DNA of 35,372 bases. Origin: Paracoccaceae bacterium. Its GTDB lineage: Bacteria > Pseudomonadota > Alphaproteobacteria > Rhodobacterales > Rhodobacteraceae. The stretch is from contig JAHEFH010000010.1 of assembly GCA_024640245.1 (NCBI GenBank), positions 1-35,372 of the forward strand, in the 5' to 3' direction. Within the stretch, counting starts at the first letter, position 1. Each line of letters opens with the position of its first letter. Positions 2,995-35,372 of the stretch are shown here, one piece after another. Below the pieces are notes generated by a model. That model did not search any database. It worked only from the letters and a program-made list of their open reading frames with translations, and had not been told where the DNA came from. The position numbers and the translations under genes were made by a program.

Positions 2995-4599
2995 CTACTC
3001 GGAAAAAACCGTGTTAACGGGCTTGAGTTCGAGGGCTGCTGCCAGTAGCGCCTTAGTGTATTCGGTTTCAGGTGCCTCGAAAATTCTGGTGCTGTCACCG
3101 GACTCAACGACGTCTCCCGCCTTCATCACCAGTACCTTGTGGCTCAGCGCGCGAACAACGCGCAGGTCGTGGCTAATGAAAATATACGCAAGGTTGTGTT
3201 TCCTTTGCAGGTCGCGCAACAGGTCGACGATCTGAACCTGAATGGTCATGTCCAGCGCCGAAGTCGGCTCGTCCAGCACAACCAGCTTCGGCCGAAGGAT
3301 CATGGCGCGGGCAATCGCGATGCGCTGGCGCTGGCCACCGGAAAACTCGTGCGGATAGCGGTCGATCATTGCTGGGTCGAGCCCGACTTCCACCATGGTA
3401 TCGTGTACCAGTTGGCGCTTGTCCAATCCGTCCTGAAGCTTGTGGACGCCGAGGCCCTCCGACACGATCTGCTCGACCGTCATGCGCGGAGACAGGGAGC
3501 CATAGGGGTCCTGGAACACCATCTGCATGTCGCGCCGCAGTGGCCGTAGTTGCTTGTTGCGCAGACCCTGTACATTATCGCCCAGAAACACCACCGGACC
3601 CTCGGAAGCGATCAGCCTCATCACCGCCAACGCCAGCGTGGTCTTGCCTGACCCGCTCTCTCCGACAATGCCGAGTGTCTCTCCCGACCGGATCGCAAAA
3701 GTGGCGGCATTGACCGCTTTTATGTGGCCCACGACACGTTTCATAAGTCCGCGCCGGACCGGGAACCAGACGCGCAGCGCGTCGGTGCGCAGGATTTCTG
3801 CCGCGTCAGCGGGAACCGGATCGGGTTCGCCGGACGGCTCGGCGGCAAGCAGTGTCTTGGTATATTCGTGCTGCGGGTTGGCGAAGACCTCGGAAGTCTT
3901 GCCGCTCTCGACGATCTTGCCGTTCCGCATGACGCAGACGCGATCAGCGATTTTGCGCACGATGCCAAGGTCATGGGTAATGAACAGCAGCGCCATGCCC
4001 TCGGCCTTCTGGATGTCCGCGAGCAGCGCGAGAATCTGCGCCTCAATGGTGACGTCGAGCGCCGTTGTCGGTTCGTCGGCGATCAACAGGTCCGGCCCGT
4101 TCGCCAACGCCATGGCGATCATCACTCTCTGCCGCTGCCCGCCGGACAATTCGTGCGGATAGCTGGTCAGGCGCTCTTCCGGGTCGCGGATGCCCACCTT
4201 GTTAAGCAGGTCCAAGATACGCTCTCGCGCGGCGCTGCCCTGAAGCCCCTGATGTAGCGCAAGGCTCTCGCCGATCTGCCGCTCGATTGTGTGCAGCGGG
4301 TTCAGCGAGGTCATCGGTTCTTGAAAGATAAAGCTGATGTCGTTGCCGCGGACCTCGCGCAAATGGCTTTTGTCCGCGCCGACCATCTCTTTTCCGCGAT
4401 AGCGGACCGATCCGCTGATCCTTGCGCTGTCAGGCAGCAAGGAAACGGTGGACAGGGCAGTGACGGATTTGCCCGAGCCGCTTTCGCCGACCAGCGCAAC
4501 GGTTTCGCCGGCGGCGATCTCGAAGCTGACCTGATCGACTGCCGGTGCATTCCTGCCAAAGCTGACCGACAGTTCGGATATTTTCAGAACGGGTTCCAT
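2995..4599 (-). CDS. yejF: Peptide ABC transporter double ATP-binding protein (YejF-like)
   Basis: Cytoplasmic energy-coupling subunit of the peptide importer, with two complete ABC ATPase domains in one chain of 534 residues, the usual YejF length. Domain 1 shows Walker A GESGSGKS (about residues 38-45), signature LSGGQRQRV and Walker [13 protein letters not shown]. Domain 2 repeats [18 protein letters not shown] and [11 protein letters not shown]. In Enterobacteria the YejABEF system imports peptides including microcin C; the substrate here is inferred only from that family. The longest frame begins at TTG 4602, but ATG 4599 shares its A with the stop of the preceding permease gene (TGATG), a normal coupling arrangement, so I chose ATG 4599. 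It is the last gene of the four-gene operon. Confidence 0.93.
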
Positions 4600-5717
4600 C
4601 AACCGAAGGTCTTTCTGGGATCAAACGCGTCCCTGATGCCCTCGAAAATGAAAACCAGTAGGGACAGCATGATCGCGAAGGTAAAAAATGCCGAAAAAGC
4701 CAGCCAGGGCGCTTGCAGGTTCTGCTTGGCCTGCAACGCCAACTCGCCCAGCGACGGATAGGAAGCAGGCAGTCCGAAGCCCAGAAAATCAAGAGATGCC
4801 AGACCGCCGATCGCACCCGTGACCAGAAACGGCATCAGCGTCAGTGTTGCGACCATCGCGTTCGGCAAAAGGTGCCGCAACATAATCGTATAGTCGCCGA
4901 CCCCCAGCGCCCGCGCCGCGCGGGTATATTCAAAATTCCGCGCCCGCAGGAATTCCGCGCGGACCACGCCCACCAGCGAGGTCCAGCTGAATACCGCGAT
5001 CAGAACGGTCAGCAGTGTGAATGTCATGCTGAAGATCGCCGAGACGATGATGATGATGTATAGACTGGGGATATTCGACCAGATCTCGACGATACGCTGA
5101 AAGACAAGGTCGACCCAGCCACCGAAATAGCCCATCGAAGCGCCGGCAATTACTCCGATGATGGATGAAACGGTGACAACGGCCAAAGCGAACAGCGTCG
5201 AGATACGGAACCCGTAGACGATGCGCGCCAGCACGTCCCGCGTCTGGTCGTCGGTGCCCAGCCAATGCGCGCCATTCGGCGGACTCGGGGCGGTGACGAC
5301 ATCATAGTTGATTGTGTTGAAACTGTAGGGAATGGGCGGCCACAGCACCCAGCCCTTGTCGATCGGCAGGCCGTCGACTTCACCGTCTTCCGCATCCAGG
5401 AACGTCGCCTCGGGATCGTCGAGGCAAGCCTCCAGCCCGCCGGTTCGGATCAGGCATTTCACTTCCGGCGCCGGGTATTCGGCCTCGGTTTCAAATTCGC
5501 CGCCGAAATCGGCTTCGGAATAAAAACTGACTGCCGGCAGATAGAACTCGCCCTTGAAGGAAACCAGAAGTGGTTTGTCATTGGCGATCACCTCGGCGAA
5601 TAGGCAGGCGAAAAACAGGATGCCGAATATCCATGCGGACCAAAAGGCACGTCGATTGGCTTTGAAATTCGAGATCCTGCGGCGCGCCAGTGCGGATTTG
5701 AAGAACAGCGGCTTCAT
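4599..5717 (-). CDS. yejE: Peptide ABC transporter permease (YejE-like)
   Basis: Inner-membrane permease of 372 residues in the DppC/YejE family. One N-terminal helix (about 24-45) is followed by a long periplasmic stretch of about 110 residues, then five helices with the permease EAA loop ([24 protein letters not shown]) that docks onto the ATPase. The periplasmic part is acidic and contains two cysteines about 10 residues apart ([11 protein letters not shown]), as part of the YejE-type insertion containing the [11 protein letters not shown] stretch. The ATG overlaps the stop of yejB as ATGA, and its own stop overlaps the yejF start, so the three genes are probably translated together. Confidence 0.93.
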
Positions 5718-6799
5718 GTTTCACGGCTTTCAAAATCAATGCGCGGATCAACATAGACGTAGGTAAGGTCCGACAAAAGGTTGACCAGCAGGCCTATCAG
5801 CCCGAACACGTAGAGCGTCCCGAACAGCACCGGATAGTCGCGGTTGACCGCCGCCTCGAACCCCAACCGTCCGAGACCATCCAGCGAGAATACGATCTCG
5901 ATGATCAGCGATCCGGCAAAAAAGATGCCGATAAACAACGCAGGAAAGCCCGAAATGATGATAAGCATCGCGTTGCGGAACACATGACCGTAGAAGACGC
6001 GCCCTTCGGAAAGGCCCTTGGCGCGGGCAGTGATGACATACTGTTTCTTTATCTCGTCCAGAAACGAGTTTTTCGTCAGCAGGGTCAGCGTTGCAAAGGC
6101 CGAAATGGTCGATGCAGTCACCGGCAGAACAATGTGCCACAGGTAATCCAGCGCCTTGCCGATCATGCTGAGTTCCGAGAAATTGTCCGAGGTCAGCCCC
6201 CTGAGCGGGAAAATCTTGTAATACGAGCCGCCCGCGAACAGCACCAGCAACAGGATTGCGAAAAGGAAGCCGGGGATGGCATAGGCAAAGATTATGATGC
6301 CGGAGCTCCAAGTGTCGAACCGCGACCCGTCACGCACAGCCTTGCGGATACCCAGAGGAATTGAGATCAGGTAGGCCAGCAGTGTCGACCAAAGCCCCAG
6401 AGAAATCGACACAGGCATCTTTTCGAGCACCAGATCCACCACCGAGATGGATCTGAAATAGCTCTCGCCGAAATCGAAGCGGATATAGTTACCCATCATC
6501 AGCAGAAAACGTTCGAGCGGCGGTTTGTCAAAGCCAAACTGGCGCTCCAGATCGGCGATGAAGTCCGGCGGCAGACCGCGGGCGCCATGATAAGAGCCTT
6601 CACTGGCACCACCACCGTTAACGTCACCGCCGCCGCCACCGCTGATCCGGTCTGTCGCGCTGGTTTCCTCTTCGAGCTGGCTGAGAATCTGTTCGATCGG
6701 TCCGCCGGGCAGAAATTGCACCAGCGCAAAGTTTATTATCATGATCCCGAGCAATGTCGGGATCATCAGCAACAACCGACGAAGGATATATGCTCCCAT
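5714..6799 (-). CDS. yejB: Peptide ABC transporter permease (YejB-like)
   Basis: Inner-membrane permease of 361 residues in the DppB/YejB family. It has an N-terminal helix (about 9-30) with the family signature FLPGGPIEQ just after it, then a periplasmic region and five further helices with an EAA-type loop ([21 protein letters not shown]). The periplasmic region includes a glycine-rich low-complexity stretch (about residues 54-67), which looks like a flexible linker. It starts at ATG 6799, nine bases after the binding-protein gene stops, with AGG in front. It pairs with YejE to form the channel. Confidence 0.93.
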
Positions 6800-6808
6800 A
6801 AACCTGCC

Positions 6809-8701
6809 TTAGAACGCGCCTGCTTGTTTTAGTTTTTGCGCCTTTTGTTCGCTATACCACCAAAAATCCATTTCGCCCATGGCATAAGGCGGCAGCGCCT
6901 CGGGATATTCGTAAATATCCAGATAGGCTATGTTGTGCGATCCTTTGTACCATTGCGGTATCCAGATATGCATCGCGCGGAGTGAACGGTCCAGAGCCCG
7001 AACGGCAACCTTCAGGTCTTCGCGGGTTTTTGCGCCCTCGATAATCTTGATCAGCGCGTCGATCGCCGGATTGGCCAACCCGGTCAGGTTCGACGATCCG
7101 GGCGTATTGGCCGTTTCACTGCTAAAGATGGACCGCAGTTCGATGCCCGGTGTCAGCGACATGACATAGCGTTGGGTTGTAATATCATAGTCGAAGGTTT
7201 TACGGCGTTCGTTTTCCTGGGCCGCATCTATAAACGTGTTCTTTGCATCAACGCCCAGTTTGATCAGGTTTTCGATGTAGGGGTTTATTATTCTGTCAAA
7301 GGACGGGCTGTCATTCAGGAATTCTACCGAGAGGGTTTCCCCCTTGGCATTCTTGCGGACACCATCGACAATTTTCCATCCCGCTTCGTCCAGCATTTTT
7401 CCGGCCCGCCGGAATACCGCGCGGTCCAGAGGGTCCGGCTTCGAGACGACCGGCGTATAGGCATCCTCGGTGAAAACCGACTGCGGCAAATCGGCCTTCA
7501 GAGGCTCAAGCATAGCGTTCTCTTCGGGTGTGATCGGACCTTTGGCTTCCAGATCCGAGTTTTCCCAGAAACTGTCGGTACGCTCATACAGGTCGTAGAA
7601 TAGTGTCTTGTTCGACCATTCGAAGTTGAACATCAGTCCCAGGGCCTCTCTTACACGGGGATCCTGAAACTTCTCCTTGCGCATGTTGAACCAGAAGCCC
7701 TGTGTGCCCGACGGGTTGCCGTCCGGCAGGGTTTCCGCTTTTACCCACCCTTTTTGAAGCGATGGAAAGTCATAGGAAGTCGCCCAGAGTTTTGACAGGT
7801 ATTCTTCCCTGAAATTGTACGCACCGCCTTTGAAGGCCTCGAAAGCGGCCGTGTAGTCGGAGAAGTATTCGAACTGCAGAAACTCGAAATTCTCGCGGCC
7901 GACATTGACGTTAAGATTCTTGCCCCAGTAGTCGTCCCGCGCCCTGTAGGACACGGTCTTTCCCGGCACGACCCGGTTCAGTACATAGCGTCCGCTACCG
8001 AGCGGCGCCTCGAGAGTGCTTTCCGCAAAGTCGCGATCGGCGTAGTAGGCCTTGGAAAACACCGGCAGGCCAGCAGCCGCCAACGGCAATTCTCGAGTGT
8101 TCACGCCTTCCTTGAAGGTGAATTTCACTCGAAGCGGCGATAGGGCCTCGACGTTTTCAAAATCCGAGAATGTGCTTTTGAGGCTCGGGCGGCCTTTTTC
8201 AATCAATATATTGAAGGAAAATACGACATCTTCCGCAGTGACCGGGGTGCCGTCGGAAAATTTCGCTTCTGGCCGCAGGTTGAAGATCGCCCACTGCCGG
8301 CTTTCTGGGTATTCGATACTCTCGGCCAACAAGCCGTACATGGCATCGGGTTCGTCGGCGCTGCCGGTCATCAGAGATTCGAAGAAGATGCTGGACAGCG
8401 ATGCGCTCTGGCCCTTGAGGATATAGGGAGTCAGGCTGTCGAATGTCCCGAAGGCCCAGGTGGAAAACGTTCCGCCCTTGGGAGCGTCCGGATTGACATA
8501 GTCGAAGTGCTTGAAGCCTTCGGGGTATTTCAGGTCACCGAACGCCGAAATGCCATGCGACTTGATTACCGTCTCCTCGTCCGCCCGTGCAGGTGCGAAA
8601 ATCAGGAGGAAGGCGCATATTCCGACAAAACCGGCTAATAGTATCGAGCGGTTTCGCGTTAGGGCAGGTGCGTAAGCAACCTGGCTGCGCAGTCGGTCCA
8701 T
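6809..8701 (-). CDS. yejA: Peptide ABC transporter substrate-binding protein (YejA-like)
   Basis: Periplasmic binding protein of 630 residues in solute-binding family 5 (OppA/DppA/YejA). The N terminus has basic residues, a hydrophobic helix (about 21-35) and an APARA-D signal peptidase site at about residue 40. The mature start, containing SHGISAFGDLKYPEGFKHFD, is characteristic of YejA, and PDAPKGGTF follows. It is the first gene of the yejABEF operon. The ATG at 8701 has GAGG seven bases upstream. It captures peptides for the YejB/YejE channel; microcin C-like cargo is known for the E. coli protein, but ligand specificity cannot be read from the sequence. Confidence 0.94.
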   Translation of the reverse strand: MDRLRSQVAYAPALTRNRSILLAGFVGICAFLLIFAPARADEETVIKSHGISAFGDLKYPEGFKHFDYVNPDAPKGGTFSTWAFGTFDSLTPYILKGQSASLSSIFFESLMTGSADEPDAMYGLLAESIEYPESRQWAIFNLRPEAKFSDGTPVTAEDVVFSFNILIEKGRPSLKSTFSDFENVEALSPLRVKFTFKEGVNTRELPLAAAGLPVFSKAYYADRDFAESTLEAPLGSGRYVLNRVVPGKTVSYRARDDYWGKNLNVNVGRENFEFLQFEYFSDYTAAFEAFKGGAYNFREEYLSKLWATSYDFPSLQKGWVKAETLPDGNPSGTQGFWFNMRKEKFQDPRVREALGLMFNFEWSNKTLFYDLYERTDSFWENSDLEAKGPITPEENAMLEPLKADLPQSVFTEDAYTPVVSKPDPLDRAVFRRAGKMLDEAGWKIVDGVRKNAKGETLSVEFLNDSPSFDRIINPYIENLIKLGVDAKNTFIDAAQENERRKTFDYDITTQRYVMSLTPGIELRSIFSSETANTPGSSNLTGLANPAIDALIKIIEGAKTREDLKVAVRALDRSLRAMHIWIPQWYKGSHNIAYLDIYEYPEALPPYAMGEMDFWWYSEQKAQKLKQAGAF

Positions 8702-27299: not shown

Positions 27300-27333
27300 G
27301 CGGGCTCCGGCAGCACCGGAGCCCGCTTGTGTT
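27300..27333 (+). terminator. Intrinsic terminator after the DM13 gene
   Basis: An 11-bp GC-rich stem, GCGGGCTCCGG with CCGGAGCCCGC (27300-27310 and 27316-27326), loop CAGCA, followed on the plus strand by TTGTGTT. It separates the convergent DM13 and sugar-transporter ATPase genes; on the minus strand there is no T-run after the hairpin. Confidence 0.75.
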
Positions 27334-28123
27334 AAAAGTCGGTCGAAGCGCCTGGGCCGGGGGTCGCGGCCGGAGGACACTTGCCGAGGATGATCATCCC
27401 CAGAACCTCGTCCTTAGTCACGTCCTTGGTCCGGGCATAGCCGACCATCTGGCCGTTCTTCATGACCGCGACGCGGTCCGCCAGATCAAACACATCGTGG
27501 ATGTCGTGGCTGATCAGGAAAATCCCGATCCCGTCCTCTTTCAACCGGTGGATCAGTTGCCCGACCTGTTCGGTTTCCTGAGGTCCCAGCGCGGCTGTCG
27601 GCTCGTCCATGATCAGGATGCGGGCATTGAACAGGATCGCGCGGGCAATCGCCACAGACTGGCGCTGGCCGCCGGACAGCTTGCTGACCGGTTCCTTGAA
27701 GCGCTGAAAGTTCGGATTGAGACGGCCCATGACCTTGCGGGCCTGCGCCTCCATCGCGACATCGTCCAGCGTTCCCCAGTTTGTCAGGACTTCACGTCCC
27801 AAAAACAGGTTGGCGGCTGCGTCCACATTGTCGGCAACAGCCAGTGTCTGGTAGATTGTCTCGATACCGTACTTCTTGGCATCGCGCGGGTTGTTGATAT
27901 CCGCTTCCTTTCCATCGACGAGGATCGTACCTGAATCACGCTTGTAGGCGCCCGACAGGATTTTGATCAGTGTCGACTTTCCAGCGCCGTTGTGGCCGAG
28001 AATGGCGACCACTTCGCCGGGATACAGATCGACCGATGCATGATCGACGGCCTTGATCCCGCCAAATGCGATGGAAAGGTCTTTGATTTCGACTAGTGGT
28101 GTTACTTTGTTATCTTTTGACAT
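27332..28123 (-). CDS. Sugar ABC transporter ATP-binding protein (single domain, XylG/FrcA-like)
   Basis: ATPase of a ribose/xylose-class (CUT2) sugar importer. It has 263 residues and one nucleotide-binding domain: Walker [10 protein letters not shown], signature [13 protein letters not shown], Walker [13 protein letters not shown] and the switch region [13 protein letters not shown]2 ATPases in E. coli (XylG, RbsA) are about 500 residues with two such domains, so two copies of this protein probably act together, as in FrcA of Rhizobia. Starts at ATG 28123 after GGGAGG, 11 bases behind the permease gene. Confidence 0.92.
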
Positions 28124-28134
28124 CGAAGCCTCCC

Positions 28135-29457
28135 TTATTTCGCGCGACGGCGGTAAATTGTGTCGATCCAGACCGCGACGACCAGAACGCTACCGACGAC
28201 CATTTGCTGGATCGCGGCATCAAACCCGATCAGGACCATGCCGGTTTGCAGCGACTGCATGACCAGCGCACCCAGGATGGCACCGTAGATCGTACCGATA
28301 CCACCGGCAAAAGACGTGCCGCCGATAACTGCCGCCGCGATGACGTAGAGTTCGTCCAGAGTGCCAAGGTTGTTGGTTGCCGAATTCAGGCGCGCGCTGG
28401 AAATAACGGCTGACAGTCCTGCGAGAGTGCCCATTATGGCGAAGATCTTGACCGTCACCCAGCGGGTGTTGATACCGGCAAGTTCAGCCGCTTCGGGGTT
28501 ACCGCCGATGGCGAAGACATAGCGTCCGAAGCGGGTCCGCGTGGTCAGGAATGTCATCGCCACGCCAACGGCGATCAGGATCAGGACCGGTATGGCAAAG
28601 CCGTGCGACTTGAATATCTCCTCAGCCGGCGTCTGGAGATTGTTTGCAGCCACGTACTGGCGGACGATACCTATGGGCCATGGGTAAGAATTGACCAACA
28701 GCACGGTTCCCAGGATGATGGCGCTGCCGGTACCGCCGAGGAACATCTCTGCCCACATCGGGCGTAGCGGAAATTTGAACCGGCGACGTTGTGTCCGACC
28801 GTTGAACAGGAGCCAGACCAGTGCGGCACATGCTATGGCGCCTACGATCCAACTGCCTAAAGATCCGATCGATCCGTAGGGGCCACCGCCAAGCTTGGCG
28901 AAAGTGGCGTCGACCGGGGAAATCGTCTCTCCGCGAGCCAGCAGGAATGCTGCGCCGCGCCAGACAAGCAAGCCGCCCAGTGTGACGATAAAGGCCGGAA
29001 TACCCAGATAGGCGACCAAAAAGCCGTGAAAGGCACCGATTAGGCAGCCGATCAACAATCCGCAAAGAACCGCAATGGGCCAGATCAGCGGATGGCCGAG
29101 GCCCAGAAATTCGGGCAGTATCCAGACTTGGATAATGGCCATCGACATTGCACAGAAACCGAGGATCGAGCCAACTGACAGGTCGATGTGCCGGGTTACG
29201 ATAATCAGAACCATGCCAGTCGCCATCACGCCGATAGAAGCGGTCTGGACAGACAGGTTCCAGAGGTTCCGGGCGGTCAGAAAAGCACCATAGCCATTGG
29301 CAATTTTGCCGTATAGATGAAAGCCCACCCATATGACGACCAGGGCAGCGATCATGCCGAGCAGTCGCGCGTCAATCTCGGTCGCACGCAGGAAACGGGT
29401 GAACGCCCCCTCGTTTTCAACCTTTGCCGCGCCGGTGGTTTGCGTTGTGTCACTCAT
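28135..29457 (-). CDS. xylH: Sugar ABC transporter permease (XylH-like)
   Basis: Inner-membrane permease of 440 residues, CUT2 family. It has about ten hydrophobic helices, the family core [40 protein letters not shown], the [20 protein letters not shown] cytosolic coupling loop and [23 protein letters not shown] near the end. An extended middle region (about 220-300) with an extra pair of helices makes it longer than RbsC and closer to XylH. It is the second gene of the sugar operon, about 110 bases after the binding-protein gene and behind a strong hairpin. Xylose is the likeliest substrate but not proven. Confidence 0.9.
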
Positions 29458-29569: not shown

Positions 29570-30601
29570 TCAGCAGCCGTTTACGCCTGCCATTGCGCCT
29601 TCACAGACTTTGTCCTTGGCGATATGGCCCGCATCGATCACGACAGAAATATTGTCCTTGTTGATCGGTGTAGGAGCAAGGAAGATCGCGTCCATTTCAA
29701 CGCCTTTAGCGCCACCGGACCATTTGACGGCGCCCGGAATGTCGGACCCCATTTTGCCGTCTGCCAGCATTGCCGCGATGGAACCGGCAGCTTTACCCAG
29801 TTCACGGGAGTCTTTCCAGACGGACGTGTTCTGCGTGCCGCGGGCAACACGGTTCAGGGCGGCATGGTCACCATCCTGGCCGGACACGGGGATGTTGAGG
29901 CCCTGTGCTTGCAGAGCAGCGATCGCGCCCCCTGCCATGCCGTCGTTTTCGGACAGAACCGCATCAACATTGTTGTTCGCTGCGGTCAGAATCTGTTCCA
30001 TGTTCTTCTGCGCGTTGTCAGGCTTCCAGCCATCGGTGAAGGCTTCACCGACGATTTTGATTTTGCCGGCGGCAACGTCTTCTCCGATCACGTCCATCAT
30101 GCCTTCGAGCAGGAACAGTGCGTTCGGATCGCCTTTGTCGCCCTTGATGATGGCATAGTTGCCTTCAGGTACGGCGGCTTTGATTGACCGTGCGATCACG
30201 CGACCGACTTCCTTGTTGTCGAAGGTCAGGTAGAAGGCGCGGTTGTCTTCGATCAGACGGTCGTAGCCAAGTACGGGAATGCCTTCTGCCGCGGCTTTGT
30301 CGACAGCTGCACCAACGGCGCCGGAGTCAACTGACAGGATGATCAGCGAATTGGCACCCTGAGCGATCAGGCTTTCAACGTCGGACAGCTGCTTGGCTGC
30401 GGAGTTTTGCGCATCGGCGGAAATATAGGTGTCGCCGTTGGCTTCGATCGCGGCCTTCATCGCGGCCTCGTCGGTCTTCCAGCGCTCTTCCTGAAAATTC
30501 GACCAGGACACGCCGATAATCTTGCCCTCGGCAAACGCGGCAGACGCGAGCGCGCTGACCGCAACGGTTGCAGCAACTGCTGCAGTAATAAATTTGTTCA
30601 T
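29570..30601 (-). CDS. xylF: Sugar ABC transporter substrate-binding protein (XylF-like)
   Basis: Periplasmic sugar-binding protein of 343 residues (peripla_BP_4 type). The signal peptide (hydrophobic about 6-20) ends at AFA-EGK. Family landmarks are IGVSWSNFQEERWKTDEAAMKAA, VLGYDRLIEDNRAFYLTFDN, INDxxD-like AIIKGDKGDPNALFL and the ligand-contact segment VSGQDGDHAALNRV. The stretch GYDRLI and the SWSNFQEERW start resemble XylF, the D-xylose-binding protein. The open frame reaches 30721, but ATG 30601 has GGAGG seven bases upstream and begins a proper signal peptide. The gene faces the ROK regulator, whose product presumably controls it. Confidence 0.92.
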   Translation of the reverse strand: MNKFITAAVAATVAVSALASAAFAEGKIIGVSWSNFQEERWKTDEAAMKAAIEANGDTYISADAQNSAAKQLSDVESLIAQGANSLIILSVDSGAVGAAVDKAAAEGIPVLGYDRLIEDNRAFYLTFDNKEVGRVIARSIKAAVPEGNYAIIKGDKGDPNALFLLEGMMDVIGEDVAAGKIKIVGEAFTDGWKPDNAQKNMEQILTAANNNVDAVLSENDGMAGGAIAALQAQGLNIPVSGQDGDHAALNRVARGTQNTSVWKDSRELGKAAGSIAAMLADGKMGSDIPGAVKWSGGAKGVEMDAIFLAPTPINKDNISVVIDAGHIAKDKVCEGAMAGVNGC

Positions 30602-30690: not shown

Positions 30691-30711
30691 TTTTCTCGAC
30701 AGTCGAGAAAA
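30691..30711. promoter_or_regulatory. Perfect 21-bp palindrome, probable ROK-regulator operator
   Basis: TTTTCTCGAC (30691-30700) and GTCGAGAAAA (30702-30711) are exact inverted copies around a single A. The site lies between the divergent xylF-like and ROK-regulator genes, where an operator controlling both is expected. Binding by the adjacent ROK protein is inference from position. Confidence 0.75.
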
Positions 30712-30806: not shown

Positions 30807-32027
30807 ATGAGTATGATGCAAACAGCAGGAACAGAGTATTTGCGGCGCCGCAACAGGGCGCGCATTCTGGCTGTGTTGCGAAATTCAGGCCCTGTTTCTC
30901 ACACGGAGCTTCTTGAAAAAAGCGGGCTAAGCTCCGCATCGGTTTCTAAGATCACAGGCGAGTTGGAAACTGAAGGCGTGATCGACAAAATGGAGGATTC
31001 GACAAGTCAGGGTCGCGGCAGGCCTCGTGTCCTGTTTCGGCAGCGGGCGGCGGCGGCCTATGTCGTCGATGTCAGGATTGTTCTGGACAAGATCGTATTT
31101 TCTCTGGTCGATTATATTGGAACGCTCAAGGACCGTATCGAGACCAGGCGAATTTTCGAGACGCCCGACATTGAGCAGTTCACCAAGGATATGAAGGCCG
31201 GACTGGATCGGGTGTTGGAGCGGTCCAACCTGACCAGGTCGGACATCAAAACCGTTTCCATAACCAGCAAGGGGGTCGTGGACAAGCATGATCCCGTACT
31301 GCTCTGGTCTCCGGTTTTCGGCCATAACAGGATCAACTTTCAAGCGATGCTCGGGCCGGACTGGAAGGCATCAATCCAGGTTACGAACGAAACACAGTTC
31401 TCCGCGAAGGCGGCCTTCGAGTTCGTGCGCAGAACAGCGAGGGGCAAGGCGGACCAACGGCAGGCGACCCTGTCTTTGGGGCATGGTGTCGGTCTGGGGA
31501 TCGCCGAACTGGACGACAGCGGCACAGTGCAGGCATTCGCCCCCGGTTTCGGTCACATGGTTCACGAGCCGGACGGGCCGGTGTGCCGGTGCGGATCTCG
31601 CGGTTGTATCGAGGCTTATGCCGGTTTTTACGGTATCCTGCGCACCGCATTCGAAGTGCCCGCGGATACAATTCCCTCGAAATTCGTGCCGTTCAAGGAA
31701 ATTGAACACGTCGCGAATTTGGCGCGTCGCGGCGACAGGCGGGCGCAATATGCGTTCAACAAGGCCGGCGAGGCGCTGGGCGTAGGAATATCGCGGCTCA
31801 TCACGATGTACGAAACGATGCCGATCCTGATCACGGGGCAGGGAATGAGCGTTTTCGACCTGTTGGAGCCGGAACTGCGATTCCACATCAGTGCCGGCCT
31901 GAACGCGCGCATCGCTGCGTTGCCGGAAATCAAGCTTATCGAGGACGAGGTCAACCTGATCCACGAGGGCAACAAGAACACGTCGCTGCACCATCTTGAT
32001 GTGATGTTTGCCGACAGTACGGGTTGA
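30807..32027 (+). CDS. ROK-family transcriptional regulator (XylR-like)
   Basis: A 406-residue regulator. The N-terminal winged helix-turn-helix (about 12-65) contains SHTELLEKSGLSSASVSKITGELETEGVI. The remainder is the ROK fold with the sugar-kinase-like glycine-rich loop (LGHGVGLGIAE), the zinc site built around GFGHMVHE and CRCGSRGCIEAYAG (the CxCGxxGCxE motif), and the C-terminal GITGQG-like segment (ILITGQGMS). ROK repressors bind a sugar in this domain; placement opposite a xylFHG-like operon suggests it senses the imported sugar. ATG 30807 has a weak AGG four bases upstream; ATG 30813 is also possible. It is followed after 11 bases by the diheme oxidoreductase gene on the same strand. 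Confidence 0.92.
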   Translation: MSMMQTAGTEYLRRRNRARILAVLRNSGPVSHTELLEKSGLSSASVSKITGELETEGVIDKMEDSTSQGRGRPRVLFRQRAAAAYVVDVRIVLDKIVFSLVDYIGTLKDRIETRRIFETPDIEQFTKDMKAGLDRVLERSNLTRSDIKTVSITSKGVVDKHDPVLLWSPVFGHNRINFQAMLGPDWKASIQVTNETQFSAKAAFEFVRRTARGKADQRQATLSLGHGVGLGIAELDDSGTVQAFAPGFGHMVHEPDGPVCRCGSRGCIEAYAGFYGILRTAFEVPADTIPSKFVPFKEIEHVANLARRGDRRAQYAFNKAGEALGVGISRLITMYETMPILITGQGMSVFDLLEPELRFHISAGLNARIAALPEIKLIEDEVNLIHEGNKNTSLHHLDVMFADSTG

Positions 32028-32038
32028 AGGGTAGGAGC

Positions 32039-33451
32039 ATGCGAATAGGATTCATAACGGCAGGTCTGGTGCTGGTCTGCTCCATTCCCGCCATAGCGCA
32101 GGATAGGCCGTGGCAAGAGACGACCTCGGCGCTGGGCAGGACAGCGGAACAGCCGAATGGCGTGCTCAGCAAAGAGGCGTTGCAGGCGCTGACCGAAATC
32201 GGCAACGAATTGTTCGACGCCAGATTCACCTCGCTGGACGGTGCCGGCAGACCGCGTGCCACCCAGGCGATTATTCCGACCAAATCCGGAAACAGAACCG
32301 TTGCCGGCTTCGCTCGCACTTCGGGACCAGATTCCAATGCCTGCTCTTCTTGCCACAATGACCCGGTCAGCGGCGGGGCAGGTGACTTTGTCACTAATGT
32401 TTTCGTAGGCGAAGGTTTTTCCGAGTTCGACTTCGATTCCGCCGACCCGCAATTTTCCAACGAGCGGGGGACCAACCACCTGTTTGGTGCTGGCCTGATC
32501 GAACTGCTGGCGCGCGAGATGACGCAGGAACTGCAGGGACTGCGCGCCGCCGCTGTTCGCTCCGCTAGGGAAGCAGGGCAGGACACGCGCGTGGCGCTCG
32601 ACACCAAAGGCGTGAATTTCGGCTGGATAACCGCGACGCCGGATGGATTTGTCCTTTTGGAAGAACTGGATGGAATCGACACGGATCTGGTGATCCGGCC
32701 ATTCAGCCAGAAAGGCGTGATGACGAGTTTGCGCCAGTTCACCGTCAATGCGATGAACCATCACCACGGGATGCAGGCGCAGGAACGGTTCGGAAGCCGC
32801 TGGACCGACGAGACGGATTTTGACGAAGACGGATATGCTGACGAAATGTCCGAAGGCGATATCGCGGCGCTGGTCGCTTGGCAGGCGACCTTGCCTGCGC
32901 CGGTCCGTGACACCCGCGACAACCCTGACTGGCAGAAAGCGGCGGAGGCAGGAGAGGAACTGTTCGGCGCTATGGGCTGCGGCGGTTGCCACATGCAGGC
33001 CCTGCCGTTGCGCTCACTGGCCTTCGCCGATCCCGGCCCGTTCGATTCCGCCGGTACCTTGAATGCCTTACAGGTGGCCGAGGCTGCGATCTATGATCTG
33101 GCTCTGCTCGATTGGTCCAGGAGCCTGTCGCGCAACGAAAAAGGCGAGTTCATGGTGCCGCTGTACGGTGATCTGAAACGGCACAATATGACAGACTCAG
33201 AAGTGGACGCCTTTGGCAACGAGTTGCTGTCGCAGCGTTTCGTCGACCGGACAATCTTTGCCACGACAGAGCTTTGGGGAATTGGATCGACCGCGCCCTA
33301 TGGCCATCGTAACGACATGACGACGCTGGACGAGGTCATCCGCGCCCACGGCGGTTCCGGCCGCAATGCGCGGGACGCATATGTCGCGGCCACATCCGAC
33401 GAGCAATCGCAGCTTATCGCGTTTCTTAAATCCCTGGTGATTGTACAATGA
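32039..33451 (+). CDS. Di-heme oxidoreductase / putative peroxidase (DUF1111, MauG-like)
   Basis: A periplasmic c-type diheme protein of 470 residues. The signal peptide (hydrophobic about 4-18) ends at AIA-QD. There are two heme motifs, CSSCH (102-106) and CGGCH (314-318). Between them lie the IRPFSQKGVMTSLRQFTVNAMNHHHGMQ and DFDEDGYADEMSEGDI stretches, which are family features; the latter resembles a calcium loop. The C terminus carries APYGHRNDMTTLDEVIRAHGG. Such proteins are annotated as thiol oxidoreductases or peroxidases, but their substrates are unknown. Frame opens at TTG 32024 inside the regulator gene; I chose ATG 32039, with AAGG eight bases upstream, because it begins the signal peptide. 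It overlaps the next gene by four bases. Confidence 0.9.
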   Translation: MRIGFITAGLVLVCSIPAIAQDRPWQETTSALGRTAEQPNGVLSKEALQALTEIGNELFDARFTSLDGAGRPRATQAIIPTKSGNRTVAGFARTSGPDSNACSSCHNDPVSGGAGDFVTNVFVGEGFSEFDFDSADPQFSNERGTNHLFGAGLIELLAREMTQELQGLRAAAVRSAREAGQDTRVALDTKGVNFGWITATPDGFVLLEELDGIDTDLVIRPFSQKGVMTSLRQFTVNAMNHHHGMQAQERFGSRWTDETDFDEDGYADEMSEGDIAALVAWQATLPAPVRDTRDNPDWQKAAEAGEELFGAMGCGGCHMQALPLRSLAFADPGPFDSAGTLNALQVAEAAIYDLALLDWSRSLSRNEKGEFMVPLYGDLKRHNMTDSEVDAFGNELLSQRFVDRTIFATTELWGIGSTAPYGHRNDMTTLDEVIRAHGGSGRNARDAYVAATSDEQSQLIAFLKSLVIVQ

Positions 33452-35106
33452 CCCATCATTTCCCGACCACACTCCTGACGGCATGGACGCTGGTTCTGGC
33501 TGGCGTCCTGCCTGCTGTTGCTGTCGGTCCATTTGCCGCCGACGTTCCTGATATGCTGGAACAGGCAGAAGCCGCAGGTCTGGAGCAGGTCTATGACGGG
33601 CCGTGGGAATATTTTGTCGGTGGCGGAGCCGCCAGTTTCGATTGCAATGGCGACCGGATGCCGGACTTGCTGATCGCGGGCGGAGAGAACCCGGCGAAGC
33701 TCTTCGTCAACCGTAGCAAGGCGGGCGGAGCGCTGGCCTTTGCACAACTCGATCTGGCGAACCTGCCGGACAAGGACAAGACCAGAGTGCTGGGAGCCTA
33801 TCCGGTAAACATCGACAACGATGCCTTTATGGATGTTGTCCTGCTACGGCTTGGCGCAAATATAATTCTGAAGGGCCAGGGCGAGTGCAAATTCGAGAAA
33901 GCCAACGACAGCTTTTCGTTTGACGGCGGCAAGGCGTGGACGACAGGTTTTTCGGCAATCTGGGAGCCGGATCAAAGCTTTCCGACATTGGCTTTCGGCA
34001 ATTACGTGGATCGCTCTATGCCGGGTTCGCCCTGGGGGACCTGTCATGACAATGTTCTGGCGCGGCCTGCGGTAAATGCGGACAAGCCTGATTATTCGAA
34101 CCTGACTGCCTTGTCGCCCGGTTTTTGCAGCCTTTCGCTAATGTTCACGGACTGGAACAATTCTGGCGAACCGGCGCTGCGCATCGCCAACGACCGTCAG
34201 TACTATAGGGGTGGCCAAGAACAGCTTTGGCAGGTCCCGCCCGGAAAGGCGCCGCGTGAGTACTCCACGCGTGACGGCTGGCGGCAGGTCGTGATCTGGG
34301 GCATGGGCATTGCCGAAGCCGACCTGAACGGCGACGGCATGCCGGAATACGCGCTCACCTCCATGGGGGATACGAAACTGCAGTCTCTGGATCCGGAAGC
34401 CGACGAGGACCAGCCGATCTATCGCGATATTGCCTTCGAACTCGGAGCTACGGCGCACCGTCCCTATATCGGTGACGACATCAAGCCGTCCACGGGGTGG
34501 CACAGCCAGTTCGCCGACGTTAACAATGATGCCGTGACCGATCTGTTTATTGCCAAAGGTAACGTCGAGGCGATGACCGACTTCGCCAAGGATGATCCCG
34601 ACAACCTGTTGCTTGGTCGGCGCGACGGCACATTCTCGGAGCAAGGCGACGCCGCAGGAATTGCGTTGCCGACCAAAGGCCGAGGCGCGGTCGTCGAGGA
34701 TTTCAATGCCGACGGCATGATGGACCTTCTCGTCGTGAACCGCAGCCAGAACGTCAGCCTGTTCCGCAACCTCGGCGCCAGAACGGATTGGGGTCATCGC
34801 CCGACCGGAAACTGGATAAAGATCGAGTTGCAGGGCGAGGGCGCGAACCCGTCGGCCATCGGCGCCAAGATACAGGTCAAGACCGGAAACCTGACACAGA
34901 ACAGAACGGTCGAGATCGGCGGTGGCCATGCCTCTGGCCAGAACGGCTTCGTTCATGTCGGGCTTGGCGTGGCGGAACGCGCCGCGATCCGCATCAAATG
35001 GCCGAATGGCGACTGGAGCCAGAGCATACGGGCCTTCGCCAACAACCATGTTGTGATCCGGCAAGGAGCCACGACGCCTATCTACTGGTTCCCACCCGAG
35101 GAGTAA
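33448..35106 (+). CDS. CRTAC1-family exported protein (FG-GAP/VCBS repeats plus ASPIC-UnbV)
   Basis: A 552-residue exported protein. After a signal peptide (hydrophobic about 8-27) it contains about six beta-propeller repeats with calcium-loop-like motifs: DCNGDRMPD (65-73), DNDAFMD (123-129), DWNNSGEP (235-242), DLNGDGMPE (292-300), DVNNDAVTD (357-365) and DFNADGMMD (418-426). A C-terminal ASPIC/UnbV domain follows (about 454-525; NWIKIELQGEGANPSAIGAKI and IRIKWPNG). Homologues include cartilage acidic protein 1 in animals; in bacteria the role is unknown. The ATG overlaps the diheme oxidoreductase stop (ATGA), so the two are almost certainly made together. Convergent with the LacI-type gene, 15 bases away. 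Confidence 0.9.
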   Translation: MTHHFPTTLLTAWTLVLAGVLPAVAVGPFAADVPDMLEQAEAAGLEQVYDGPWEYFVGGGAASFDCNGDRMPDLLIAGGENPAKLFVNRSKAGGALAFAQLDLANLPDKDKTRVLGAYPVNIDNDAFMDVVLLRLGANIILKGQGECKFEKANDSFSFDGGKAWTTGFSAIWEPDQSFPTLAFGNYVDRSMPGSPWGTCHDNVLARPAVNADKPDYSNLTALSPGFCSLSLMFTDWNNSGEPALRIANDRQYYRGGQEQLWQVPPGKAPREYSTRDGWRQVVIWGMGIAEADLNGDGMPEYALTSMGDTKLQSLDPEADEDQPIYRDIAFELGATAHRPYIGDDIKPSTGWHSQFADVNNDAVTDLFIAKGNVEAMTDFAKDDPDNLLLGRRDGTFSEQGDAAGIALPTKGRGAVVEDFNADGMMDLLVVNRSQNVSLFRNLGARTDWGHRPTGNWIKIELQGEGANPSAIGAKIQVKTGNLTQNRTVEIGGGHASGQNGFVHVGLGVAERAAIRIKWPNGDWSQSIRAFANNHVVIRQGATTPIYWFPPEE

Positions 35107-35121: not shown

Positions 35122-35372
35122 CTAGATAGTATCGCCAGCGGCAATGTCGGCTGAAAGGGCTATTGTCCATTCGACCCTGTCGCCACCGGCGTCGGGATGG
35201 GCCAGGATCAGGCCAGCGGCTTGCTCTCCGATGGCGTATCGGTGGGCATCGGTTGTGGCGAGCTTGCGTGGCAAACCGTTCAGGATCTCCAGATTGTTGA
35301 ATCCTGCCAGTGCCAAATCGTCCGGCACCGAAATGCCCTCTGCCAGACAGTGCATCAATCCACCAACCGACA
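35122..35372 (-). CDS. LacI-family transcriptional regulator, C-terminal part (cut by window end)
   Basis: The last 82 or so residues of a LacI/GalR-type regulator; the rest lies beyond the window edge. Visible landmarks are LMHCLAEGISVPDDLALAGFNNLEI, which is the end of the ligand-binding fold, and LATTDAHRYAIGEQAAGLIL, the C-terminal helix of the dimer interface. It would bind a sugar-type effector. Whether it controls the CRTAC1 pair, or genes further right, cannot be seen. It is transcribed towards the CRTAC1 gene, with the two stops 15 bases apart. Confidence 0.85.
   Translation of the reverse strand, partial: SVGGLMHCLAEGISVPDDLALAGFNNLEILNGLPRKLATTDAHRYAIGEQAAGLILAHPDAGGDRVEWTIALSADIAAGDTI

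Follow-up and report, generated by a model that had tools for sequence, protein, structure and literature searches.

The subject of this work is a three-gene string in a 35,372-nucleotide stretch of DNA from a Paracoccaceae bacterium (hereafter the window), which is an entire contig (C55) in a 2.86 Mb assembly of 211 contigs. The string encodes a regulator of the ROK family, a diheme protein of the DHOR/DUF1111 family, and a protein of the CRTAC1 family, and it lies opposite the genes of a sugar importer. We find that the DHOR and CRTAC1 genes very probably constitute a peroxidase-CRTAC1 module that is functional and linked to xylose uptake. Sequence comparison reveals the module itself, its linkage to xylose genes, exchange of the peroxidase among families, natural gene fusions, and a His at a heme ligand position. 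The features of the locus are the following.

27332..28123, minus strand: xylG-type ATP-binding cassette (ABC) ATPase (PF00005)
28135..29457, minus strand: xylH-type permease (PF02653)
29570..30601, minus strand: xylF-type substrate-binding protein (TIGR02634), divergent from the ROK string
30691..30711, no strand: palindrome TTTTCTCGAC-A-GTCGAGAAAA in the xylF-ROK intergenic region, a candidate ROK operator
30807..32027, plus strand: ROK-family regulator, 406 residues, with a winged helix-turn-helix (HTH) and a ROK domain; XylR-like by position
32028-32038: spacer between the ROK and DHOR genes, 11 bases, with AGGAG resembling a ribosome-binding site
32039..33451, plus strand: diheme DHOR/DUF1111 protein, exported, putative peroxidase, 470 residues, ATG start
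33448..33451, plus strand: ATGA stop/start overlap of the DHOR and CRTAC1 genes
33448..35106, plus strand: CRTAC1-family protein, exported, 552 residues, with an FG-GAP/VCBS propeller and an ASPIC/UnbV domain

The ROK, DHOR, and CRTAC1 genes form one plus-strand string, and the order, the 11-base gap, and the ATGA overlap given in a preliminary description of this DNA are all in place. We assign the first product as a ROK transcriptional regulator by its winged HTH and ROK domain. It matches PF00480 at 69.7 bits and, in its N-terminal part, MarR/HTH_24 (MarR, 30 bits), both above cut-off, and its translation contains a CxCGxxGC motif. The DHOR protein matches PF06537 weakly (26.6 bits; cut-off, 22) and only over its C-terminal 91 residues, which marks it as a divergent member of the DHOR/DUF1111 family. 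The CRTAC1 protein has a propeller at about residues 29 to 454 (FG-GAP_3, 59.4 bits) and an ASPIC/UnbV domain at residues 470 to 522 (UnbV_ASPIC, 38.2 bits). With FG-GAP repeats, UnbV_ASPIC above cut-off, and a CRTAC1 fold, it belongs to the CRTAC1/ASPIC-UnbV family. The translations of the DHOR and CRTAC1 genes, read by eye, begin with a signal-peptide-like stretch.

A search for CRTAC1 relatives gave at least 528 confirmed loci, and we analysed the nearest 80 of 528. A DHOR gene lies immediately upstream of CRTAC1 in 76 of these 80 (recounted by stop-to-stop distance; the exceptions are L110, L115, L117, and L120), a figure that describes one clade only, since the 80 loci are the nearest relatives of the DHOR-linked CRTAC1. 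This repeated order argues that the string did not arise by chance, and it bears out the earlier claim that the two exported products are a conserved pair. ROK is present in 63 of the 72 nearest CRTAC1 loci that have at least 5 kb of upstream sequence, and XylF is present in 65 of them. The DHOR frame ends in ATGA in 53 of 74 scored loci and in GTGA in another 10. Record titles place the CRTAC1 loci in Rhizobiales, Rhodobacterales, Rhodospirillales, Granulosicoccaceae, Thiothrix, and others. DHOR relatives occur in 9 of 295 genomes of a family search (E 1e-30). CRTAC1 adjoins DHOR in three of them (G000, G021, and G497), and none is shown beside DHOR in the other six (G488, G500, G503, G538, G655, and G671). 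Therefore, the pairing is restricted to a DHOR subfamily. In G671 (L171), a close DHOR adjoins solute-binding proteins, with no CRTAC1 match in the 18 kb retrieved.

Several arrangements around these genes were seen in passing. The DHOR relative of Antarctobacter (L030:7695-10429) is followed by a YHYH protein, and the Rhodobacteraceae genomes G488, G500, G503, G538, and G655 have a DHOR of this type with no CRTAC1 match nearby. In Azospirillum brasilense (L031:4302-9806), a DHOR relative lies by genes annotated as a LodA/GoxA-family cysteine tryptophylquinone (CTQ)-dependent oxidase, a ferritin-like protein, and a tryptophan 7-halogenase. Two genomes assigned to the genus of the window (L036:7601-12636 in G021 and L037:1472-6507 in G014) have two same-strand genes after CRTAC1. 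Those of L037 encode an Omp85/POTRA protein and TamB (TAM-like), and the pair in L036 is of equal lengths.

We then used two less biased, overlapping samples of 385 class genomes and 398 phylum genomes. CRTAC1-subfamily matches (cut-offs, E 1e-30 and E 1e-60) were found in 14 and 20 genomes, 6 of them shared, for a total of 28, and 32 retrieved regions were annotated. Next to CRTAC1, 7 genomes have DHOR, 9 have a CCP_MauG-family diheme protein, and 2 have a vanadium haloperoxidase; 9 have no peroxidase neighbour, and one is a short-contig case. Some contigs in the group with none are themselves short (G160, G336, and G378, about 10 to 13 kb), so that a distant neighbour could escape. In Phaeobacter inhibens DSM 17395, Ruegeria conchae, and Roseinatronobacter (annotated plasmids), xylFHG faces ROK-CRTAC1, and a cytochrome c peroxidase (CcP) gene is convergent. 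Ruegeria sp. TM1040 has ROK-CRTAC1 without the CcP gene, and SC52 has CRTAC1 and CcP with no xyl genes within the stretch shown. G968 and G990, which lack a local peroxidase, have a CcP of 57 to 59% identity elsewhere, and no such CcP was found in the genomes G582, G297, and G336 at E 1e-10.

The third partner has a different fold. A PAP2/VCPO-type gene lies upstream of CRTAC1 in L117, L120, and L180, and a broken one was detected by tblastn in L115. In L184, a haloperoxidase relative follows CRTAC1 within a xylBAFHG string. The products in L117, L120, and L180 carry RP, PSGH, and SRxxGGxH, which we take to be the vanadium haloperoxidase motifs. The L120 product (L120:4292-5602) matches the vanadium-dependent haloperoxidase 4cit at E 1.2e-78, and we assign it as a vanadium haloperoxidase homologue. 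It is a clear relative of the haloperoxidases 4cit and 4usz, presumably of the genus Zobellia, but it is encoded beside CRTAC1. Gemmatirosa (Gemmatimonadota) has a CRTAC1-like match, a haloperoxidase, and a second CRTAC1-like match on one strand, and the peroxidase neighbourhood therefore extends beyond Proteobacteria. A general rule of haloperoxidase-CRTAC1 linkage was rejected: L120-type relatives occur in 4 of 372 class genomes, none with a CRTAC1 match in the 3.8 to 4.2 kb retrieved, and the haloperoxidases of Hymenobacter and Adhaeribacter have no CRTAC1 annotated within 4 kb. The linkage is limited to one CRTAC1 clade (L115, L117, L120, L180, and L184), Gemmatirosa, and one fusion.

To place these partners on a CRTAC1 tree, we used 54 of 111 rows, the 111 being what was left of 116 after rows identical over the last 400 residues were dropped. 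L184 was labelled as having no partner in the tree and conservation counts despite its haloperoxidase neighbour. Partner type needs 9 changes on the tree, against a mean of 25.3 after shuffling, and none of 200 shuffles came so low. A single clade (100/98) unites the four rows labelled as haloperoxidase, with L184 adjacent. DHOR and CcP rows occupy separate parts of the tree, with partnerless rows interspersed and a split support of 93/93. We conclude from these comparisons that CRTAC1 is the constant part and that its peroxidase partner has been exchanged among three families with two unrelated folds. The preliminary description had missed this; it recognised the pair, but the diheme gene is the part that varies.

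Two natural fusions join CRTAC1-type and peroxidase-type parts in one polypeptide. In G378, a single frame of 1289 residues (L199:3558-7424) links CRTAC1 (FG-GAP and ASPIC) to a vanadium-haloperoxidase-like part (DUF6851 and VCPO_2nd). In G959, a single frame of 1092 residues (L202:2026-5301) links a CCP_MauG diheme peroxidase to CRTAC1 and is immediately followed by a gene for a TonB-dependent receptor. Both frames were read unaltered, each from one draft genome. Over the matched stretch, the CRTAC1 portions of the fusions are 30 to 32% identical to the window CRTAC1 and so belong to the wider family. Coupling of the peroxidase to CRTAC1 is strongly supported by context, exchange, and fusion. 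The pairing of one CRTAC1 lineage with three peroxidase families, together with the fusion of CRTAC1-type proteins to two of them, is a clue that the chemistry involves hydrogen peroxide (H2O2).

One explanation of this pattern is a peroxide shield. Xylose would signal algal or plant xylan, the periplasmic peroxidase would counter H2O2 from the host, and CRTAC1 would be a sugar-binding or surface scaffold that keeps the peroxidase close to where the H2O2 arises. Each of the three partner types belongs to a peroxidase-type family, the names or sources of many carriers are marine, and VCBS propellers include lectins, along with sugar enzymes (PMC8023676). However, the constant part is CRTAC1 and not the peroxidase, 9 of 27 CRTAC1 loci persist without a linked peroxidase, and CRTAC1 has numerous invariant residues that a scaffold would not necessarily need. 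We regard a shield as rather unlikely.

The association with a ROK gene that faces a sugar importer, also noted earlier, was borne out, and the importer is of the xylose type. The window XylF matches TIGR02634 at E 4e-109 and 364.8 bits, slightly below the cut-off of 389.55, and xylA and xylB of the same genome are on another contig (C130). Most of the 76 DHOR-CRTAC1 loci face xylFHG, so the sugar tied to the string is probably xylose. In the 28 sampled genomes, xyl genes adjoin CRTAC1 in 21, one of these having xylAB only. Two rearranged operons, DHOR-CRTAC1-xylF-xylH-xylG (L113) and xylF-xylH-xylG-DHOR-CRTAC1 (L077), retain the pair in one string with the importer genes. The xylose-regulon papers searched contain nothing on a DHOR-CRTAC1 pair.

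The region between xylF and the ROK gene holds the candidate operator. Of 67 divergent xylF-ROK regions, 35 have a similar palindrome (at least 14 of 18 positions), against 1 of 670 mononucleotide shuffles, a contrast that is optimistic because the consensus was chosen by eye from the same regions, near-duplicate loci included. The palindrome also scores as a terminator-like hairpin, and a consensus scan gave no sigma-70-like promoter. From the protein family and this motif, we suggest that ROK may control the divergent xylFHG and ROK-DHOR-CRTAC1 transcripts through a shared operator, and that this control would last until xylose or a close sugar binds.

CRTAC1 genes elsewhere also adjoin other importers, of the Liv and alpha-glucoside types, and an aldose epimerase gene is near CRTAC1 in several loci. 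No peroxidase accompanies the CRTAC1 relatives that adjoin Liv-type ABC importer genes in L165, L166, and L160; in L166, we noticed no gene for a substrate-binding protein between the CRTAC1 relative and the Liv-type genes.

Three positions in the DHOR gene bear on the type of diheme enzyme.

32342..32356, plus strand: first heme motif, CSSCH (C102-H106); C102, C105, and H106 invariant in 47 proteins
32978..32992, plus strand: second heme motif, CGGCH (C314-H318); C314 and H318 invariant and C317 at least 90% conserved in 47 proteins
33347..33349, plus strand: His437, aligned to the distal Met of bacterial CcP, with the spacing of the MauG-type Tyr

The 47 aligned proteins are 46 of 75 DHOR rows and the window protein; the start of the L113 protein was chosen manually. 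His437 was placed by HMMER alignments to 1iqc and 1eb7. A His stands at the position of MauG Tyr294 in all 47 DHOR proteins and in all 13 CRTAC1-linked CcPs. In a control, the MauG homologue by a methanethiol-oxidase-like gene (L119) has Tyr there. His at this position is the CcP state according to PMC7567364. The DHOR protein has a diheme CcP fold, and its fold matches include MauG and the MauG-like 6e1c. It lacks the Tyr axial ligand on the C-terminal heme that marks MauG, as judged from sequence, by alignment or equal spacing. Its relation to bacterial CcP is distant (best profile, E 1.4e-4). Both have two c-type hemes, and the distal position is taken by His or Met; unlike the bacterial enzymes, the peroxidases of the module are paired or fused with CRTAC1. 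The CRTAC1-linked CcPs keep an FPVLS..EM motif in 12 of 13 cases (pattern match). These features suggest that DHOR is a His-ligated, CcP-like putative peroxidase. A RoxA-type oxygenase would be another conceivable reading of a bis-His diheme protein.

The conserved residues of CRTAC1 include one in the following motif.

34501..34503, plus strand: His352 of the STGWH motif, specific to the CRTAC1 subfamily, at the predicted start of a blade inner strand

His352 is kept in 82 of 82 DHOR-linked, 13 of 13 CcP-linked, and 4 of 4 haloperoxidase-linked rows and in 11 of 12 rows without a partner, and its position is Gly in three distant CRTAC1 proteins. H494 and H352 are both subfamily residues, missing from three distant bacterial CRTAC1 proteins. 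CRTAC1 also has four nearly invariant Cys and several conserved Tyr and His residues; one alignment holds 48 of the 80 loci and the window. Six residues are conserved whatever the partner (Y118, W164, M286, W351, H352, and R412), and the predicted strands place them, tentatively, at the propeller funnel.

MauG acts on methylamine dehydrogenase, and MbnH acts on MbnP with a protein-derived modification. The preliminary description had proposed, by analogy with MauG, that CRTAC1 could be the oxidation target or scaffold of the diheme protein. Read as a maturase, the diheme protein would oxidise CRTAC1 residues to a protein-derived cofactor or cross-link. The system does share a diheme fold and a paired periplasmic protein with MauG and pre-methylamine dehydrogenase; DHOR differs in lacking a Tyr294 equivalent and in having CRTAC1 as its partner. 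The resemblance to MauG and 6e1c, the tight pairing, and the CcP-CRTAC1 fusion would fit a maturase, and two residues may be candidate targets. The Y216 position holds Tyr in 79 of 82 DHOR-linked rows and in 12 of 13 CcP-linked ones, but Phe in 5 of 5 haloperoxidase-linked rows (the four labelled rows and L184, all one clade), a pattern that fits a shared target in part. W523 is kept in a fraction of 0.99 of the DHOR-linked rows. However, Y216 is replaced by Phe in three DHOR-linked rows and by Trp in one CcP-linked row, and among the 11 remaining rows that lack a peroxidase neighbour, 8 have Tyr and one is gapped. W523 is absent from CcP- and haloperoxidase-linked rows and retained in 6 of the 12 rows without a partner. 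The analogy is weakened further because both diheme partners have His and not Tyr at the Tyr294 position, because a heme-free vanadium haloperoxidase takes the same place beside this CRTAC1 subfamily in one other clade, and because the CRTAC1 alignment has no column of Trp, Cys, Met, or His that is kept in both diheme-linked groups yet lost in the haloperoxidase group. Y216 and W523 stay on as candidates, although no Trp fits a target common to the diheme-linked groups, and we consider a maturase unlikely.

A fold search with CRTAC1 gave CRTAC1 itself at the top and aldos-2-ulose dehydratase, a sugar enzyme, second by E-value, among many propellers. Galactose oxidase was not among the 50 fold matches listed, which is no evidence against a galactose-oxidase-like copper site with a Tyr-Cys radical. 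The dehydratase match, the Liv- and alpha-glucoside-type importers, and the nearby epimerase genes would suit a non-redox role, in which CRTAC1 serves in the periplasm as a dehydratase, lyase, mutarotase, or binder of pentose derivatives and the peroxidase handles a side product or is merely co-regulated. We think this quite improbable, because the fusions, which involve two kinds of peroxidase, speak for a direct redox link and the dehydratase is one among many propeller matches.

The reading we prefer is that peroxidase and propeller form a periplasmic module under xylose control, with CRTAC1 acting on a sugar and H2O2 chemistry shared between the two proteins. Both products would be exported, with CRTAC1, a calcium-stabilised VCBS/ASPIC propeller, as the core. 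Its substrate, outside the cytoplasm, would be xylose, a pentose or pentosylated compound, or a glycan that bears xylose. The diheme partner would then either consume H2O2 from CRTAC1 or use H2O2 to oxidise a redox centre in CRTAC1. We infer the enzymatic role of CRTAC1, its action on sugar, and the direction of electron flow. The statement taken as a whole is a serious possibility that still falls short of probable, and our confidence in it is limited because either direction would fit, an oxidase feeding the peroxidase or the peroxidase oxidising CRTAC1.

The closest functional precedent is the mtoX-SCO1-mauG operon for methanethiol oxidase, an SBP56-family copper enzyme (PMC5739008). There too, a periplasmic oxidoreductase is encoded beside a diheme gene of the CcP/MauG family. 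In contrast, CRTAC1 is a VCBS/ASPIC and not an SBP56 protein, the string has no SCO1 gene, and the window diheme protein has His rather than Tyr at the MauG position. Separately, Pelagibius has a string of SBP56 (methanethiol-oxidase-like), SCO1/SenC, and MauG-type genes (L119:2053-5420) about 1 kb from DHOR-CRTAC1.

A CRTAC1-family gene is also reported between genes for homologues of hydrazine synthase subunits (PMC12758564). By comparison with the beta and gamma subunits and non-anammox homologues in that paper, the window string has no alpha gene and has a xylose context, and its CRTAC1 differs from the beta subunit described there. The likeness is of a gamma-like fold alone, and within the string, which the comparison covers, no alpha, beta, or gamma genes are present. 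The animal CRTAC1 structure 9etn is 19% identical to the window CRTAC1 in their alignment.

We found no description of a peroxidase-CRTAC1 module in the open-licence papers searched, and within that literature the pair stands, as first supposed, as an undescribed two-protein periplasmic system. We know of no activity for CRTAC1-family proteins from bacteria to humans. The xylose locus points to an inducer and to the probable class of substrate. For xylose use in Rhizobiales, Rhodobacterales, and Granulosicoccus-type bacteria, the module would mean an additional redox step in the periplasm. A broader idea, which we hold to be doubtful, is that CRTAC1/ASPIC propellers are unrecognised secreted, H2O2-coupled sugar oxidoreductases that pair or fuse with whichever peroxidase is available, the xylose-locus clade acting on pentoses. 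If the shared fold keeps such chemistry, animal CRTAC1 may also have a redox function.

Elsewhere in the window, genes of a YejABEF-type (microcin C/oligopeptide) ABC importer lie at 2995-8701 on the minus strand. Downstream of CRTAC1, at 35122-35370 on the minus strand, a translation read by eye indicates a partial LacI-type regulator truncated at the contig end.

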